49,984 bases of DNA. It comes from Thiomicrorhabdus sp. Lineage in GTDB: Bacteria; Pseudomonadota; Gammaproteobacteria; Thiomicrospirales; Thiomicrospiraceae. The stretch lies in NCBI GenBank assembly GCA_015487015.1, contig WFQP01000025.1, forward strand, positions 1 to 49,984, given 5' to 3'. The notes under the pieces are model-generated. The model was given only the letters and a program-made list of their open reading frames with translations, was not told the origin of the DNA and searched no databases. Numbering within the stretch: position 1 is the stretch's first letter; each line of letters opens with the position of its first letter. Made by a program: the position numbers and the translations under genes. Below, one piece after another: positions 4,084 through 19,806 of this stretch.

Positions 4084-4956
4084 CTACTGGGTAATCTTAG
4101 ATAAAAGATCAGGGTTAACAACCAAGTTTCTCACGCCGTGTGCATGATCTTCTTCAAATACATTCAATTTGCACCACTCTCCCACAGTTTCAATATTAAC
4201 CTTAGCTACCTGAGGACGCACACTCCAACTTACCTGAAGTGGAGAAGCGACTTCATTATAACTTGGCCCTGTTGTAGACCCTTCGTATTTAACCGCTACA
4301 CCCGTATCACTTGGGATGTTTAAGGCTTGATGCATATTATTTTTTACACCATGGCGAGTTAACTCAGCAAAGTTACCTGCACTGTCATCATTCACTAAAA
4401 CATACACCTGAGTCTCTACACGTAGTTGTGGGTTTTTAATCGAATCACTCAAGCACGAACCTAACGTAGGTCCTGGTTGAACCTGTGCCGTTGAATGTAC
4501 ATAATGCACTTCAATCGTATCTCCTGGCGCAAGCCCGCCATAAGTACTTGGGCAAATATCTTTATTAACAGGAGCTAATTCAGAGGCACTTAATGTACCA
4601 GAATATTTGTAACCAGACTGATACCCTTTACCATCACCATTCCCAGCATACACGCTAAACTCTCCGCCCTGATGCTCCGCATTTTTATGAAAATGAATAT
4701 TACAAAGGTTCATCTCTTGATAAGAAGGCGCGGCGCTAAAGATACGCTCATTCGTTCCATTAACAGAATCGATATTTCTTGGAGACTGTGGCCCAAACCC
4801 CTTACCTTCTGTATTTTTCTTTAACTGAGCACGTTGCTCCGCAATCACTTGATCAGAAACAGGAACACTGTCCGCTCCTATTTTTTGAGTTCCAACACTG
4901 GCACAACCGGTTAATAATGCACTGCCTGCAAGTAACATAAACATTCTGGTTTTCAT
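4084..4956 (-). CDS. Putative delta-class carbonic anhydrase-like lipoprotein
   Basis: The 290-residue product starts with a lipoprotein signal peptide: a positive N-region, a hydrophobic core, and lipobox LTGC with acylated Cys18. The core resembles the delta carbonic anhydrase-like family (CA_like, first known from diatom TWCA1) as I recall it. There is a histidine cluster at H88, H90 and H95 (NIHFHKNAEH), then VHYVH with H151 and H154, and conserved-looking cysteines at 85, 135 and 168. If active it would interconvert CO2 and bicarbonate at the periplasmic or outer-membrane face. AGGAG with a 7-base spacer fixes the start. It is monocistronic, between sppA and mfd. Family assignment is from memory of motifs; catalysis is inferred. 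Confidence 0.7.
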   Translation of the reverse strand: MKTRMFMLLAGSALLTGCASVGTQKIGADSVPVSDQVIAEQRAQLKKNTEGKGFGPQSPRNIDSVNGTNERIFSAAPSYQEMNLCNIHFHKNAEHQGGEFSVYAGNGDGKGYQSGYKYSGTLSASELAPVNKDICPSTYGGLAPGDTIEVHYVHSTAQVQPGPTLGSCLSDSIKNPQLRVETQVYVLVNDDSAGNFAELTRHGVKNNMHQALNIPSDTGVAVKYEGSTTGPSYNEVASPLQVSWSVRPQVAKVNIETVGEWCKLNVFEEDHAHGVRNLVVNPDLLSKITQ

Positions 4957-5289
4957 TTAATACTCCTAATATTATTGTTTATAAAAATAATGGAATCACC
5001 CCATACATTAAGCTAACAATATCCACAACGGCCGCTAAAATTAGCATGTTTCCATAGGTTTTGCAAAACAAGTAACATTTAACATTTAACATTTAACATT
5101 TAACATATTGATCCTAATGAGAATATGACGACATATAAAACAATTTTCTACGCTCTCATTTCCACCTCTAATTTGGGATATATGGGTTTAAAAACAAAAC
5201 CTCAAAACCGAATGCAATTAAAAACTGCTAAAATAGCGTGACTAAAAATGAATGGTTAACATTCCCCCCTAAACACACTAAAAAACGTA
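4957..5289. other. 333-bp divergent intergenic region between the carbonic anhydrase-like gene and mfd
   Basis: AT-rich and without a coding sequence I can support. It must hold the promoters of both flanking genes, but I see no convincing paired -35/-10 boxes. It contains the heptamer tandem repeat at 5073-5106. A short reading frame at 5238-5489 runs into mfd in another frame and looks spurious. Confidence 0.6.
5073..5106 (+). repeat. Heptanucleotide tandem repeat, TAACATT x 4.9
   Basis: Four perfect copies of TAACATT (5073-5100) are followed by a partial fifth, TAACAT. The tract lies about 117-150 bases upstream of the carbonic anhydrase-like start codon. Tandem repeats of this kind can change copy number by slippage; an effect on expression is conjecture. 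Confidence 0.9.
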
Positions 5290-13401: not shown

Positions 13402-13980
13402 ATGCAAGAATACGTTTTAATTTTGATTAGTACCGTACTGGTCAATAATTTTGTATTGGTTAAATTTTTAGGGCTTTGCCCCTTTATGGGGGTGTCTAAA
13501 AAAACAGATGCAGCACTCGGTATGGGGCTGGCAACTACGTTTGTACTCACTCTATCTTCGGTATTAAGTTACATCATCTACAGCTATCTGCTACAACCTT
13601 TTGGACTGGAATACCTGCAAACCATCGCCTTTATTTTAGCCATTGCGGCAGTCGTAGGCTTTACTGAAATGGCGATACACAAAACCAGCCCCGCGCTGTA
13701 TCAAGTATTAGGTATTTACCTCCCCCTTATAACCACCAACTGCGCAGTATTAGGGGTTGCACTGCTCAATGTCACAGAAAACAATAACTTCTTAGAGTCG
13801 GCGTTTTTTGGATTTGGTGCCGCTGTTGGCTTTACCTTAGTGATGGTGCTGTTTGCCTCGCTTCGAGAGCGTATTGATGCCTCCGATGTCCCCACCCCTT
13901 TCAAGGGTGCACCCATCGCATTAATTACCGCTGGGCTTATGTCTATGGCCTTTATGGGATTTGGAGGGATGGTTCATTAG
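13402..13980 (+). CDS. rnfA: Rnf/Rsx electron transport complex subunit A
   Basis: RnfA is one of the two homologous membrane subunits at the core of the Rnf complex, which couples ferredoxin:NAD electron transfer to ion translocation; as Rsx it reduces SoxR. The 192-residue product has about six transmembrane segments and the conserved [10 protein letters not shown] motif near 22-31, whose cysteine contributes to a membrane-embedded Fe-S site in this family. A matching LLGLCPLLA occurs in RnfE. AAGGA 9 bases upstream supports the start. It opens the tight rnfABCDGE run and overlaps the assigned rnfB frame by 20 bases. Confidence 0.95.
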
Positions 13981-14626
13981 TATTACTGCTGCTATTCTGA
14001 TTTTTGTAGGGCTGGCCTTAATTTTTGGGTTGTTGCTGGGGTATGCGGCTGTCCGCTTTAAGGTTGACGGCAATCCACTGGCTGAACAAATTGATAAGGT
14101 TTTACCACAAACTCAATGCGGGCAATGCACCTACCCTGGTTGCAAACCTTACGCCGAAGCTGTTGCTAAAGGAGAGGCCGAAGTTAATCTGTGCATACCC
14201 GGTGGTACAGACACCATGATTCTTATCTCTGAAATAACGGGACTCGAACCCAAAGAGATGGAAGCCAACGAAGCTGAACACAAACCCAAAGAGACCGCCT
14301 TTATTGATGAAGACGTCTGCATTGGCTGTGTTTTATGCATTAAAGCCTGCCCTGTTGATGCCATTTTAGGCGCAACCAAATTGATGCACACCGTCATTCA
14401 GTCCGAATGTACGGGTTGTGATAAGTGTGCACCTGTTTGCCCAGTAGACTGCATTGATATGCGCCCCCCTTCCATTTCAATTGAAAATTGGCAGTGGCCT
14501 GAACCCAACATAATACCAACAGTACCCTCTGAAAAAATATCTGAATCAACGATAAATTCTAACTTAAATTCAAACGATACTGATTTGATTTATAACGAAA
14601 AAACAACCGAAGGAGACTCTAAATGA
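13961..14626 (+). CDS. rnfB: Rnf/Rsx electron transport complex subunit B (ferredoxin-type)
   Basis: RnfB carries the Fe-S relay that receives electrons on the cytoplasmic side. An N-terminal transmembrane segment (about 6-30) is followed by an Fe-S domain with C53, C56, C61 and C78, then two 4Fe-4S ferredoxin motifs: C120/C123/C126/C130 and C150/C153/C156/C160. The C-terminal 50 residues are low-complexity and variable. The frame begins at TTG 13961 with no Shine-Dalgarno. GGAGGG at 13963-13968 instead points to ATT 13976, which also fits the usual RnfB N-terminus better. The stop overlaps the rnfC start by 4 bases. Confidence 0.95.
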
Positions 14627-16629
14627 AGCAATTAATCATTCGTTTACTCTCCTTTATTTACCCCATGGCAAAACGTGGATTACACCGTTTTCACGGAGGG
14701 ATTTTTCCTAAGAGCTATAAATCACTCTCCTTAAAACACCCCATTGTTTCCTCCCCCATTCCAGAACGTTTAATCCTGCCAGTTAAACAACTCTCTGGGC
14801 AAAAAATAGATTGGCATGTGGCTGTGGGCGATACTGTACAGAAGAACCAGTGTCTCATCAGCGCGGCAAAAGAAAATACAAAAGGCATTATCGTGCCGAT
14901 TCATGCCCCCACCTCAGGCATAATTGAGGCGATCGAAATGGCTCCCTTACCACACCCTTCAGGGTTAAATGCGTGTTCTATTATTATCAAACCCGATTTT
15001 GAAGACCGCACACTTGAAAACGTCCTCAATATGAACGGTACACGACCCGAGACTCCGCAACAGCTTAAAAATATTTTGCTGAATGCTGGTATTGTCGGCT
15101 TAGGTGGCGCAGGGTTTCCTACCTTTGCCAAACTGCCTAACCAAACAGGGCTGATTAAAACATTAATCATTAATGGTGCTGAGTGCGAACCATTTATTAC
15201 CTGTGATGATGTGCTGATGCAAACACAGGCACAAGATATTCTAAAAGGGGCGTTAATGGTCGCCCAGACACTGGATATTCCTCAAATTGTCTGTGGCATT
15301 GAAGCCAATAAGCCGGCCGCTATTCAAGCTATGCAAACCGTAGCAGACGCCCTAACGAAATCAAACTCAACTCAAATCCGCATTCAAGCACTGCCTGCCG
15401 TCTACCCAATGGGGGGGGAAAAACAGCTGATTCAAGAACTCATGGAGATAGAAATACCCGCCAAAACTCATGCGATTGACAGCGGATTATTGGTCTTTAA
15501 CGTGGCGACTTTTGCCGCAATATTTAAAGCCATTCACTTAGGTGAACCCCTGACACAACGTTTAGTAACCGTGGCTGGTTTAGAGTTAAAGCGCTCTTAT
15601 AACACGTATGCACGAATTGGCACCCCTTTTATCACCTTAGCCCAAGCAGGTCAGCCCAAGCAACCCATACAAACCCCACTGATTATGGGCGGCCCTATGA
15701 TGGGCTTTCAAGTTGCGGACAACCAAGTACCAGTGATTAAAACCACCAACTGTATTTTGGTACAACCACCTGAACCAGTTCAAGCCACCGTGATGCCTTG
15801 CATTCGCTGTGGAGACTGCATGGACGCTTGCCCTGTTAATTTACTGCCCCAACAGATGTACTGGCATAGCCAAGCCCATGAGTTTGATAAGGTTGAAAAG
15901 CTCAATGTGTTTGACTGCATTGAGTGCGGTTGCTGTAGTTACGTGTGCCCAAGCCATATTCCTTTGGTACAGTTTTACCGCCATGCAAAATCCGAAATTA
16001 AACACATTCATGCCGAACAACAAGCCGCCGAACTCGCCAAACAGCGCCATGAATTTAGATTGGCGCGTATTGAGCGTGAAAAACAAGAACGAGAAGCGCG
16101 TATTAAAGCCAAAAAAGCTGCGGTTAAAAATCAAGCGGCCAGTGCAAAACCAGAACCGAAGTCAGATCCAAAAACCAGCGGTGCTACCACACCAGCAAAA
16201 TCTGCGGCCATGAAAGCAGCGGCGGCAAGAGCTGCGGCAAAACGAGCACAAAACAAAACCAGCCAACCAGCTGAAAAATCTCCCCCCCTCTCTGCACGTC
16301 AAAAAGCCATTGATGCGGCTAAAAAACAAGCCGCAGCTAAGGTTGGTTCTAAAATAGCGCCCAATAAAGACCCCAGAACCTCGGCCAAGCAAGCGGCAAA
16401 AAAAGCGGCTGCGATGGCGGCTGCAAAACGCCGTGCTCAAAATAATAATGAGGCTGAGTTAACAACTAAGTCTACTACCGAAGCAAAAATGGACTCAAAG
16501 ACAAACCATTCCGAAACCTCTGAGCCTTCAAAGCTTGCTATAAATGAAAAACGCCAAAAAGCCATGGAGGCCGCTAAAAAACGTGCGGCCGAACGAAAAG
16601 CGCGTCAAGCACAACAGGAATCATCTTAA
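14623..16629 (+). CDS. rnfC: Rnf/Rsx electron transport complex subunit C
   Basis: RnfC is the peripheral NADH- and FMN-binding subunit with two 4Fe-4S clusters. The NuoF-like core contains the glycine-rich [10 protein letters not shown] (about 165-174) and the GAECEP motif. Two cluster motifs follow, [12 protein letters not shown] (about 393) and [12 protein letters not shown] (about 433). Beyond residue 460 the protein becomes a Lys/Ala/Arg/Glu-rich extension of about 200 residues with repeated AAKK- and AAAK-type units, as seen in many gammaproteobacterial RnfC proteins. A G8 run (15411-15418) encodes part of YPMGGEKQL, and a C7 run lies in the extension. Start and stop abut rnfB and rnfD, showing translational coupling. 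Confidence 0.96.
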
Positions 16630-17730
16630 ATGAGTTCACTCACTCCGCTGTCATCGCCCCTTTCATCCCCTTTTGCACACAGCAACCAATCCATTCGTCG
16701 CTTAATGTTTAAAGTGCAACTCGCGGTTATTCCCGCCCTCTTGGTACACCTTTATCTATTTGGCTTTGGCATTATCATTCAATGGGCACTGGCATTTGCT
16801 ACCCTAATGCTGGTTGAGTTCAGCATGCTGAAACTCAGAAACCGCCCTGTGCGCCCTTTTATAACCGATATGAGTGCCATGATTACCGCCACCGTACTGG
16901 TCTTTTGTATTCCCGCTGGCGCACCTTGGTGGATTATTGTCAGCGGAACCGCCTTTGCCCTTATTTTTGGTAAGCATATTTATGGTGGGTTAGGCTACAA
17001 CCCCTTTAACCCCGCTATGCTCGGCTATGCATTTTTACTGCTCTCCTTCCCAGTACAAATGACGCAATGGACAGCACCCACCGAAATATTAGATTATTCC
17101 GTTAACTTTACCAATAGTTTGCAGCTTATTTTTACCGGAAGCCTACCGCAAACTGCTCTAGATATAGTCAGTGCTGCCACACCTCTGAGCCAACTACAAA
17201 CAGGAGTCTCTCAAGGACAAGGGGTAACCGAAAGTTTAAACCCCATTGCGTTAGAAGCCCAAACACACTATATAAATGGCTCGTTTGTAAATGGCTTCTT
17301 TTACTCCACCGCACAATTTTTTAGCTTAAACAGTTGGGCTTGGGTTAATGTGGCATTTTTAATTGGTGGACTCTGGTTGCTCGCGGTCAGAGCCATTCGC
17401 TGGCAATACCCAGTTGGGTTTTTAAGCAGCTTAACCTTAATCAGTCTTATTTTTTACACCATCGACCCCAACACTTACCCGCCCGTTGACTTTATGCTGC
17501 TTTCAGGGGGAACCATGCTGGCGGCCTTCTTTATTATTACCGATCCCGTCACCTCCAGCACCACACCCAAAGGACGCTTTATTTTTGCCTGTAGCATTGG
17601 TATTTTGGTATATGTGATTCGTACTTGGGGAATTTTTCCAGACGGCATCACCTTTGCCGTATTACTGATGAACATCGCTGTACCACTTATTGACCAATAC
17701 ACACAGCCTCGTGTGTATGGACATAAATAA
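16630..17730 (+). CDS. rnfD: Rnf/Rsx electron transport complex subunit D
   Basis: RnfD is a polytopic membrane subunit related to NqrB that carries covalent FMN. The 366-residue product has multiple hydrophobic segments and the flavinylation motif SAAT at 181-184, in which Thr184 is the expected FMN-phosphodiester attachment residue. The conserved YGGLGYNPFNPAMLGYA region is near 117-133. It begins immediately after the rnfC stop codon with no intervening base. A poly-G-rich AGAGGGGGGAG between it and rnfG serves as the rnfG ribosome-binding site. Confidence 0.95.
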   Translation: MSSLTPLSSPLSSPFAHSNQSIRRLMFKVQLAVIPALLVHLYLFGFGIIIQWALAFATLMLVEFSMLKLRNRPVRPFITDMSAMITATVLVFCIPAGAPWWIIVSGTAFALIFGKHIYGGLGYNPFNPAMLGYAFLLLSFPVQMTQWTAPTEILDYSVNFTNSLQLIFTGSLPQTALDIVSAATPLSQLQTGVSQGQGVTESLNPIALEAQTHYINGSFVNGFFYSTAQFFSLNSWAWVNVAFLIGGLWLLAVRAIRWQYPVGFLSSLTLISLIFYTIDPNTYPPVDFMLLSGGTMLAAFFIITDPVTSSTTPKGRFIFACSIGILVYVIRTWGIFPDGITFAVLLMNIAVPLIDQYTQPRVYGHK

Positions 17731-17748
17731 GATAGAGGGGGGAGAAAA

Positions 17749-18420
17749 ATGACAAAGCACACAAAACCATCCTCTAAAAGTAGCTCAAATAATACGTTAT
17801 TTAAGCATATGTTTGCTTCGGCCTATAAACTCGGTCTGTTTATGTTTGTCTGCATTATTTTATTATTAGCGACCGACTACTTAACGGCTCCTAAAATTGC
17901 ATACGAACATCGCCAAGCTATGCTTAAAACCTTTAACCAAGTACTTCCCCCACACCTTTATAACAATACCCCGCTAGAAGATACCCTAACTCTCTCAGAC
18001 CCCAAACAGTTTACACAACTGGGCAGTGAACACCCTGTTACACTTTACCGAGCGCGTAAAGACAACCAACCTGCTGGGCTTATTTTTCAAATAAAAGCCC
18101 GAAACGGCTACAGTGGACATATCAACCTACTCATGGCTGTACTGCCCAATGGAAAGATATCTGGTGTACGCGTTTTAGAGCATCGAGAAACGCCAGGGCT
18201 TGGAGATAAAATAGAACTTCAAAAAAGTGATTGGATTTTAAGCTTTAATGGCCAAACCATTCAAGCTCACCAGCCCAATGATCCACGCTGGGCGGTCAAA
18301 AAAGATGGCGGTGATTTTGATCAATTTACAGGTGCCACCATCACACCCAGAGCCGTAGTAGGCGCCATTAAAAAAGCCTTACTCTTTATTCAGCAACGAG
18401 GAGAATCGTTATATGAGTAA
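17749..18420 (+). CDS. rnfG: Rnf/Rsx electron transport complex subunit G
   Basis: RnfG is a single-span subunit with a periplasmic FMN-binding domain. After a polar N-terminus there is one transmembrane segment (about 28-46). The covalent FMN motif FTGATIT is at 193-199 with Thr197 as the attachment residue, preceded by the conserved [10 protein letters not shown]. At 223 residues it is of normal length. Flavinylation normally requires an ApbE enzyme, which is not in this window. AGAGGGGGGAG just upstream acts as a strong Shine-Dalgarno. The 3' end overlaps rnfE by 8 bases. Confidence 0.95.
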
Positions 18421-19174
18421 CGCCAACCAGACAGAACAAAGCCAAAATACCGCTGAACCAACACGCTGGCAAACGTACAAACACATCATGGATAACGGGC
18501 TATGGAAAAACAACCAAGCCCTTGTAGCGTTGCTAGGGCTATGCCCTCTTCTCGCCGTCTCTAATAATATTGTCAACGGACTTTCACTGGGCTTGGCCAC
18601 CTTAGCGGTGCTGTTAATTTCCAACGGTCTTATTTCACTGATTCGTAATCATGTCTCCAGTGACATACGTATTCCCGTTTTTGTCGCCATCATCGCCACG
18701 GCCGTCACCATTATTGACCTACTGATGAACGCTTACCTGCACACACTGCACGGTATTTTAGGGATTTTTATTCCCCTCATCGTTACCAACTGCGCTATTT
18801 TAGGACGTGCCGAAGCCTATGCCTCTAAAAATACCTTAGACAAAGCCCTTGTGGATGGATTTTTTATGGGACTCGGCTTTCTGTTAGTACTGGTCTTACT
18901 TGGAGCATTACGCGAAATGATTGGTAACGGCACGCTGTTTGAACACACTCACCTGCTGTTTGGTGATATAGCCCAAAACTGGACCATTCACTTTAGCGAC
19001 AACTACCAAGGTGTCTTACTGGCTGTTTTACCCCCCGGTGCCTTTATTGGATTAGGGCTACTTATTGCTCTTAAAAATGCCTATGACGCGAAAAAAACAG
19101 CTAAAACAAATAATGCACTGGGCATTCCCATTGCCATCACTCCCGCCCCACAACAGCAAGAAAATCGTCCATGA
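18413..19174 (+). CDS. rnfE: Rnf/Rsx electron transport complex subunit E
   Basis: RnfE is the membrane partner homologous to RnfA, arranged with inverted topology to form the electron and ion conduit. The 253-residue protein has about six transmembrane segments and the conserved [10 protein letters not shown] near 40-49, plus a mirrored [13 protein letters not shown] motif. A hydrophilic tail of about 25 residues follows the last helix. GAGGAG upstream of ATG 18413 is a good Shine-Dalgarno. The stop overlaps the nth start (ATGA), so nth is translationally coupled. All six Rnf subunits are present and intact. Confidence 0.95.
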
Positions 19175-19806
19175 ATAAAGAAATTCGTCTTAAAATTTTT
19201 GAACGGCTCTCAGAGGCCATTCCAAACCCCGAAACTGAACTTAATTACAGTAACCCGTTTGAGTTGCTGATTGCGGTGATTCTCTCGGCACAAGCCACTG
19301 ATAAAGGCGTCAATATCGCCACCGATAAACTGTTTCCTGTGGCGAATACCCCCCAAGCTATTTACGATTTGGGCGAAGAAAAACTCAAATCCTACATCAA
19401 AACCATCGGACTGTTTAACACCAAAGCCGCCAACATTATTAAAACCTGTAAAATGTTAGTCGAGCTTCACAACTCCGTTGTACCAAATAACAGAGAGGAC
19501 TTAGAAGCCCTGCCTGGCGTTGGTCGAAAAACCGCCAATGTGGTACTTAACACTGCTTACGGCCAGCCAACGATGGCGGTAGATACCCATATATTTAGAG
19601 TATCCAATCGTACCAAGCTGGCCACGGGTAAAAATGTACTGGAAGTTGAAAAAAAGTTGCTCAAACACATTCCAAAACAGTACATCATCCCCGCGCACCA
19701 CCTGCTTATTTTGCACGGACGCTATACCTGTGTGGCCAGAAAACCCCGCTGTGGTGCTTGCTGTATTTATGACTTATGTGAATACAAAGATAAAATAACG
19801 GAATAG
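19171..19806 (+). CDS. nth: Endonuclease III
   Basis: Nth is a DNA glycosylase/AP lyase that removes oxidised pyrimidines. The helix-hairpin-helix [12 protein letters not shown] contains catalytic Lys120, and Asp138 in VDTHIFR completes the active site. The C-terminal 4Fe-4S cluster ligands are C187, C194, C197 and C203. All six residues fall at the same numbers as in E. coli Nth, and the length is 211. The start overlaps rnfE by 4 bases. The rnf-nth link is conserved in Gammaproteobacteria. Confidence 0.97.

Follow-up and report, generated by a model that had tools for sequence, protein, structure and literature searches.

The window, which is the whole stretch of 49,984 nucleotides analysed here, contains at 4084..4956 on the reverse strand an open reading frame for a protein of 290 amino acids. 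It starts with ATG, and an AGGAG sequence lies just 5′ of this codon (CTCCT on the forward strand, 4963-4967). The Pfam profile for delta carbonic anhydrases, PF10563, matches residues 79-257 over its full length (positions 1-181), scoring 268.2 bits against a cut-off of 26.3 (E value 5.3e-80). Because this match spans the full profile and 81/81 members of alignment A2 match the same family, we do not regard the reading frame as a chance one. By this family test the product is a delta-class carbonic anhydrase (delta-CA), as the first-pass annotation had proposed, and an ordinary member of the family; the class is already known in bacteria, and this protein adds one more member. The sole match in NCBIfam was a weak, signal-peptide-like one to NGK_0946_fam (E 0.028), under its cut-off. 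We took as chance a weak PDB match to GH61E (E 0.39) and weak Pfam matches of delta members to RBD, WSS_VP, LptD_2, DUF3857 and NinG (E 0.022 or worse). The host assembly (1.98 Mb, 144 contigs, 85% complete) holds one delta-CA copy.

Two relatives help to place the protein. TWCA1/TweCA of Thalassiosira weissflogii, also a PF10563 protein, shares with it the full-profile match, an export signal and the three-histidine site reported for the class; the window protein differs in being bacterial and in having a lipobox, and the two were likened through the family profile. A Shewanella baltica plasmid protein, WP_011979500.1, annotated as a delta-class carbonic anhydrase, is 65.3% identical over 98% of the query. 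Its gene sits between transposase and recombinase genes, whereas the window gene lies on a chromosome-like contig, where it stands alone between divergent neighbours and is flanked by an S49-type peptidase gene and an mfd-like gene. Among the fetched loci (open reading frames of 180-600 amino acids), no neighbour family spans more than 10 loci, and several of the largest are antisense frames or belong to alpha-CA loci. A conserved gene neighbourhood was rejected, since no operon partner was found among these loci. Reading by eye, we noted some four to five tandem copies of the heptamer AACATTT at about 5073-5107, in the gap separating the delta-CA and mfd-like genes. Elsewhere in the window, 13402-19806 contains a gene run that looks like an Rnf-type complex, with an endonuclease III-like gene after it.

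Export signal and lipid anchor

The first 18 residues (4903..4956, reverse strand) read as a signal peptide in which a hydrophobic stretch is followed by the lipobox L15-T16-G17-C18, confirming the earlier assignment of a lipobox with Cys18. We thus read the protein as exported and probably anchored by lipid to the outer membrane, and after export the mature form would start at lipidated Cys18. The anchor that had been proposed is likely for this protein, but is not a trait of its relatives: among 12 other genus-related N-termini, nine have a Cys at the lipobox site and three carry ordinary signal peptides; across the wider delta-CA set, a permissive lipobox pattern fits 28 of 106. Judged from these N-termini, lipid anchoring is not a family-wide trait.

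Conserved residues and a putative metal site

Residue conservation was read from two alignments, one of 92 rows from 91 loci and a later one of 114 rows that adds 20 lower-scoring places from the phylum sample and two plasmid copies; the window protein is present twice in each (in the first as q and L001). The five histidines named by the first-pass annotation, H88, H90, H95, H151 and H154, are where it had placed them. In the 92-row alignment the first four are invariant and position 154 is His in 87% (80 rows). In the 114-row alignment H88, H90, E94, H95, E149, H151, T228, T229, W244, C85 and C168 are identical in every row, and position 154 is His in 85, Tyr in 22 and Phe in 7. The conserved residues thus extend beyond the earlier set, which lacked E94, E149, T228, T229, C85, C168 and two C-terminal histidines, H271 and H273 (conserved as His in 110 and 112 rows, respectively). 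Positions 135 and 262 covary: 98 rows have Cys at both and the remaining 16 at neither, which points to an exported disulfide pair. We infer a second pair from the invariant C85 and C168, so that the protein probably has two disulfides, C135-C262 and C85-C168.

Most of these residues fall in five short blocks, all on the reverse strand. The first is QSPR at residues 57-60 (4777..4788), with Q57, P59 and R60 in all 114 rows and S58 in 89; it would be the counterpart of the N-terminal QSPI/VD/N of alpha carbonic anhydrases (alpha-CAs). A putative first zinc strand, C85-NI-H88-F-H90-KNA-E94-H95 (4672..4704), has its five labelled residues in every row. In the putative second zinc strand, E149-V-H151-Y-V-H154 (4495..4512), the same is true of E149 and H151. 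The block G226-S-T-T229-G-P231 (4264..4281), with its first five residues in all rows and P231 in 113, is the likely counterpart of alpha-CA GSLTTP. Finally, H271-A-H273 (4138..4146) lies outside the Pfam match, and these histidines could possibly act as a proton relay. Two distant rows, L128 and L129, have HTH instead of HFH in the first zinc motif and Trp in place of Y152, so a separate sub-branch with an altered pocket may exist.

At least three conserved histidines able to bind metal are therefore present, H88, H90, H95 and H151 being invariant (114/114), and our choice among them follows a mapping onto human carbonic anhydrase II (CA II). We take H88, H90 and H151 to correspond to His94, His96 and His119 of CA II, E94 to Glu106, E149 to Glu117 and T229 to Thr199, and H95 and H154 to the non-ligands H107 and H122. 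On this mapping H88 and H90 would be metal ligands, H151 the third zinc ligand, E94 a gate partner and T229 the gatekeeper. The histidine core had been put forward as a set of metal ligands; H88, H90 and H151 keep this part, and H95 and H154 lose it. X-ray absorption in older work is said to have given TWCA1 an alpha-like metal site. His94, His96 and His119 are described as the zinc ligands of CA II in passages of PMC4730368, and delta-CAs are reported there and in passages of PMC8132391 to use three His ligands.

Predicted fold

Two template-free AlphaFold models were made, the first from 51 rows and the second, covering residues 33-290, from 81 bacterial rows with at least 69% identity to the window protein. 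Confidence is low for both (mean pLDDT 62.0 and pTM 0.63 for model 1; 66.5 and 0.71 for model 2). In model 2, residues 83-91, with H88 and H90, and 147-155, with H151, are predicted as strands. The T229 loop (227-238) and residues 268-290, which hold H271 and H273 and are the worst-predicted part of both models, have pLDDT below 50.

Foldseek against the PDB gave 205 matches for model 1 and 186 for model 2 at E up to 10, none of them at or below 0.001; the best rows, 3b1b_A (E 1.4e-3) and 1jcz_A (E 1.1e-3), are both alpha-CAs. The best 50 of the 205 and the best 50 of the 186 are all alpha-CA or CA-like domains, with TM-scores of 0.17-0.32. On the same lists VIA-align 2 gave best Z-scores of 4.3 (rmsd 4.5, 124 aligned) and 4.7 (rmsd 4.4, 122 aligned), in a range (Z below 8) where the program warns that a match may mean a mere common arrangement. 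Its best 50 rows are again alpha-CA-fold chains and include vaccinia D8, PTPRG, PTPRZ and dioscorin, of which we take D8 and dioscorin to have the alpha-CA fold. Fifty such rows are not 50 independent votes, because many rows are versions of the same few proteins, and alpha-CAs are over-represented in the PDB. The HFH motif alone might also lead a structure network with prior exposure to alpha-CAs to draw the alpha hairpin. A search of BFVD returned 117 matches, none with E at or below 0.001; five of the first nine were named OPG105 or carbonic anhydrase, and the rest were unnamed or unrelated.

Resemblance to alpha carbonic anhydrases

The host assembly also encodes two alpha-CAs (PF00194; L094 and L095), both with export-like N-termini, and these show the same motifs as the delta protein in the same order: QSPID for QSPRN, HFH..E for HFH..E, EAHFVH for EVHYVH and GSLTTP for GSTTGP, followed by V.W. 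The spacing differs in two of three intervals. From QSP to HFH there are 57-62 residues in the alpha-CA rows and 31 in the delta protein; the alpha-CA segment bearing NNGH and the His64 shuttle would thus be missing or moved. From HFH to ExH there are 17 residues in the alpha-CA rows and 61 in the delta protein; the 77 residues of the latter from ExH to GS fall within the 64-82 of the alpha-CA rows read.

The prevailing account of this likeness is that delta-CAs have an origin separate from that of alpha-CA, and that the shared HxH...EH and ExHxxH reflect convergence on a three-histidine zinc site. Classes are called unrelated or convergent in passages of PMC8132391, PMC7215798 and PMC5574912 and "evolutionarily independent" in PMC10880623, and the part of PMC4730368 consulted treats the classes, delta included, in the same way. 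Profile searches agree with this account: with HMMER at E up to 10, PF00194 is not among the families matched by any of the 81 delta members, and the delta profile matches no PDB sequence. The low TM-scores also speak for it. Convergence of ligands, in turn, does not predict ordered matches outside the ligands, namely QSP, the E-H after HxH, the ExHxxH spacing and GSxTxP..W, nor is it favoured by a structure search in which the best 50 PDB rows for each model are all alpha-CA-fold chains.

The motif order was put to several nulls. An ordered pattern (QSP, HxH..E, ExHxx(H/Y/F/I), GSxT..W), written after the alignment had been seen, fits 113/113 delta open reading frames, 20/30 alpha frames and 0/3028 others; it fits no sequence among 200,000 shuffles of the mature window protein. 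On its own, the shorter HxHxxxEH matches 1/3028 others and 102/200,000 shuffles. With signal peptides trimmed, local hhalign scored 23.97 (E 0.011), above all of 31 decoy families, some of which are antisense frames (mean 14.1, sd 2.2, maximum 19.1), which argues against an independent origin; its probability of 3.9%, in the range of 3-4%, argues for one. QSPR is paired with alpha QSPID by hhalign, and a local match covers residues 214-261 around the GSTTGP block. Untrimmed, the local score of 23.8 stood beside non-collinear alternative paths at 22.5, 21.5 and 19.0. The global alignment gave a probability of 22.8 with signal peptides, which helped it, and mis-threaded the HFH block; trimmed, the probability was 0.28 and 2/31 decoys scored as high or higher, so it was not used as support.

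A custom profile alignment, run at two gap settings, beat 150/150 column-permuted alpha profiles at each (39.61 versus a maximum of 30.89, and 51.26 versus 47.85). Block-shuffled alpha profiles, in which local motifs are kept, reached the observed score in 7 and 4 of 150 trials, a point for the convergent account and an indication that motif order adds only modest weight beyond the motifs themselves. At high gap cost the alignment found the HFH block only, which is the best single block shared with alpha-CA (score 16.6, with no null run). Weighing these results together, we consider an independent origin of the delta class unlikely. Motifs and rough predicted fold are instead suggestive, short of proof, of a delta class that is a remodelled alpha-CA.

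Distribution and autotrophy

Genome contigs yielded 406 relatives when scanned. The best 80 of the 406, at 64-77% identity, are mostly from Gammaproteobacteria, with others from Campylobacterota, Nitrospirota, Desulforhopalus, Mariprofundaceae and Alphaproteobacteria. Many of these 80 bear the names of heterotrophs, among them Colwellia, Grimontia, Enterovibrio, Vibrio and Shewanella. The family is thus found in many marine bacteria. In a phylum sample, 77 of 398 genomes have a delta-CA, 52 of the 77 belonging to one family, f40; f40 rows adjoin Mariprofundaceae rows in a quick tree (support 83), and f40 is probably Mariprofundaceae. The description of the class as best known from diatoms is accurate for the literature but not for its spread, since these counts make it common in bacteria. 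Two matches in the phylum sample (G071:C24 and G291:C38) are interrupted by in-frame TAG or TGA codons and are either decayed copies or assembly errors. Bacterial genomes with the delta class are also counted in passages of PMC10880623.

Within the genus, 16 of 32 genomes have the gene and the other 16 lack it. Plasmids carry it in 8 of 72,556 records, and 7 of these copies are already annotated as delta-class carbonic anhydrase. The copies on the S. baltica plasmid (L092) and on a Piscirickettsia salmonis plasmid (L093) lie beside transposase or recombinase genes, and the latter, at 50.2% identity, is the most divergent plasmid copy covering at least 80% of the query. Carriage by phages or viruses was rejected, as phages gave no delta-CA match and none of 48 pattern matches in viral contigs encodes a relative. 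The gene phylogeny is a quick tree only. In it the window protein falls in no starred set and same-genus rows are scattered: five group with L073 and L031 (support 92), three form another group (96), and L082 and L091 stand apart. One same-genus row, L090, is identical over the aligned columns to that of Thiomicrorhabdus sp. 6S3-12 (L073), which makes Thiomicrorhabdus the probable genus of the window. The scatter, the carriage by half of the genus and the plasmid copies weakly suggest repeated gain of the gene in the genus.

The host had been called a likely autotroph, and its assembly does encode a RuBisCO large subunit (457.8 bits) with an adjoining small-subunit-like open reading frame. Neither beta-CA (PF00484) nor DabA (PF10070) had a match in the same assembly, which is weak evidence of absence because the assembly is 85% complete. 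The host RuBisCO, together with the RuBisCO-family (PF00016) matches in 43 of the 52 f40 delta-CA genomes and a report that genes of the dissolved inorganic carbon toolkit are as a group commoner in autotrophs (PMC10880623), leaves room for a dedicated part of the enzyme in concentrating CO2 for autotrophic growth in this lineage. Counts over the 398 genomes, 117 of which match PF00016, make us doubt it. Outside f40, PF00016 goes unmatched in 21 of 25 delta-CA genomes, and three of the other four score only 205-233 bits, probably from RuBisCO-like proteins, against 458 bits in the host genome, the single full-scoring case. Conversely, delta-CA is absent from 56 of 60 genomes outside f40 that match PF00016, and half of the genus lacks it. 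The delta-CA gene is therefore no marker of autotrophy: it is present in an autotroph but not confined to autotrophs, and the supply of carbon to an autotroph, once suggested as the purpose of the enzyme, does not hold as a general role given these 21 genomes and carriers such as Colwellia, Vibrio, Grimontia and Shewanella.

Discussion

We put at a little under four in five the probability that the gene at 4084..4956 encodes an exported, probably lipid-anchored and disulfide-bonded delta-CA that uses a zinc or cobalt site on H88, H90 and H151 to equilibrate CO2 and bicarbonate in the periplasm. Zn (or Co) would be held by these residues on two strands, and the metal-bound hydroxide would attack CO2 while oriented by E94 and T229, as by Glu106 and Thr199 in alpha-CA. 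The enzyme would thereby keep periplasmic CO2 and bicarbonate in equilibrium; in this autotrophic host that could feed carbon uptake, and heterotrophs with the gene would use it to handle pH or CO2. It may be redundant, because the genome also has two exported-looking alpha-CAs. Dead CA-like domains typically lose their zinc histidines, and H88, H90 and H151 are invariant in 114/114 rows, so we think it very improbable that the protein keeps a carbonic anhydrase fold without a working enzyme, in the manner of the PTPRG and PTPRZ domains or vaccinia D8, even though such domains are among the top VIA-align rows and the literature searched held no assay of a bacterial delta-CA; the diatom member TweCA-delta is active, with a kcat of 1.3e5 per s and a KM of 3.9 mM (passages of PMC6009927).

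On origin, we hold it probable that the delta class is a deeply diverged alpha-CA and not an independent invention. It would have retained both zinc strands, the Glu/Thr gate and the C-terminal strand-helix. The segment bearing the His64 proton shuttle would have been lost or moved, and some 44 residues would have been added between the zinc strands; H271 and H273 could be a replacement proton relay. Other classes have been drawn together in passages of the literature, eta as a possibly divergent alpha (PMC10880623) and theta as resembling beta (PMC8132391). Among the titles and abstracts searched, where subscription journals are poorly covered, none linked delta to alpha by descent, and a prior claim elsewhere is possible. 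Algal delta enzymes, for their part, may descend from, or be cousins to, a large bacterial periplasmic family.

The mapping onto alpha-CA matters because the delta profile matched no structure among PDB sequences at E up to 10, and a passage of PMC6009927 likewise gives no delta-CA structure or homology model as of 2018. If it is true, a carbonic anhydrase class so far counted as independent merges with another, mutagenesis can directly test the catalytic residues and proton path of delta-CAs, and knowledge of alpha-CA inhibitors would be transferable to the delta class.
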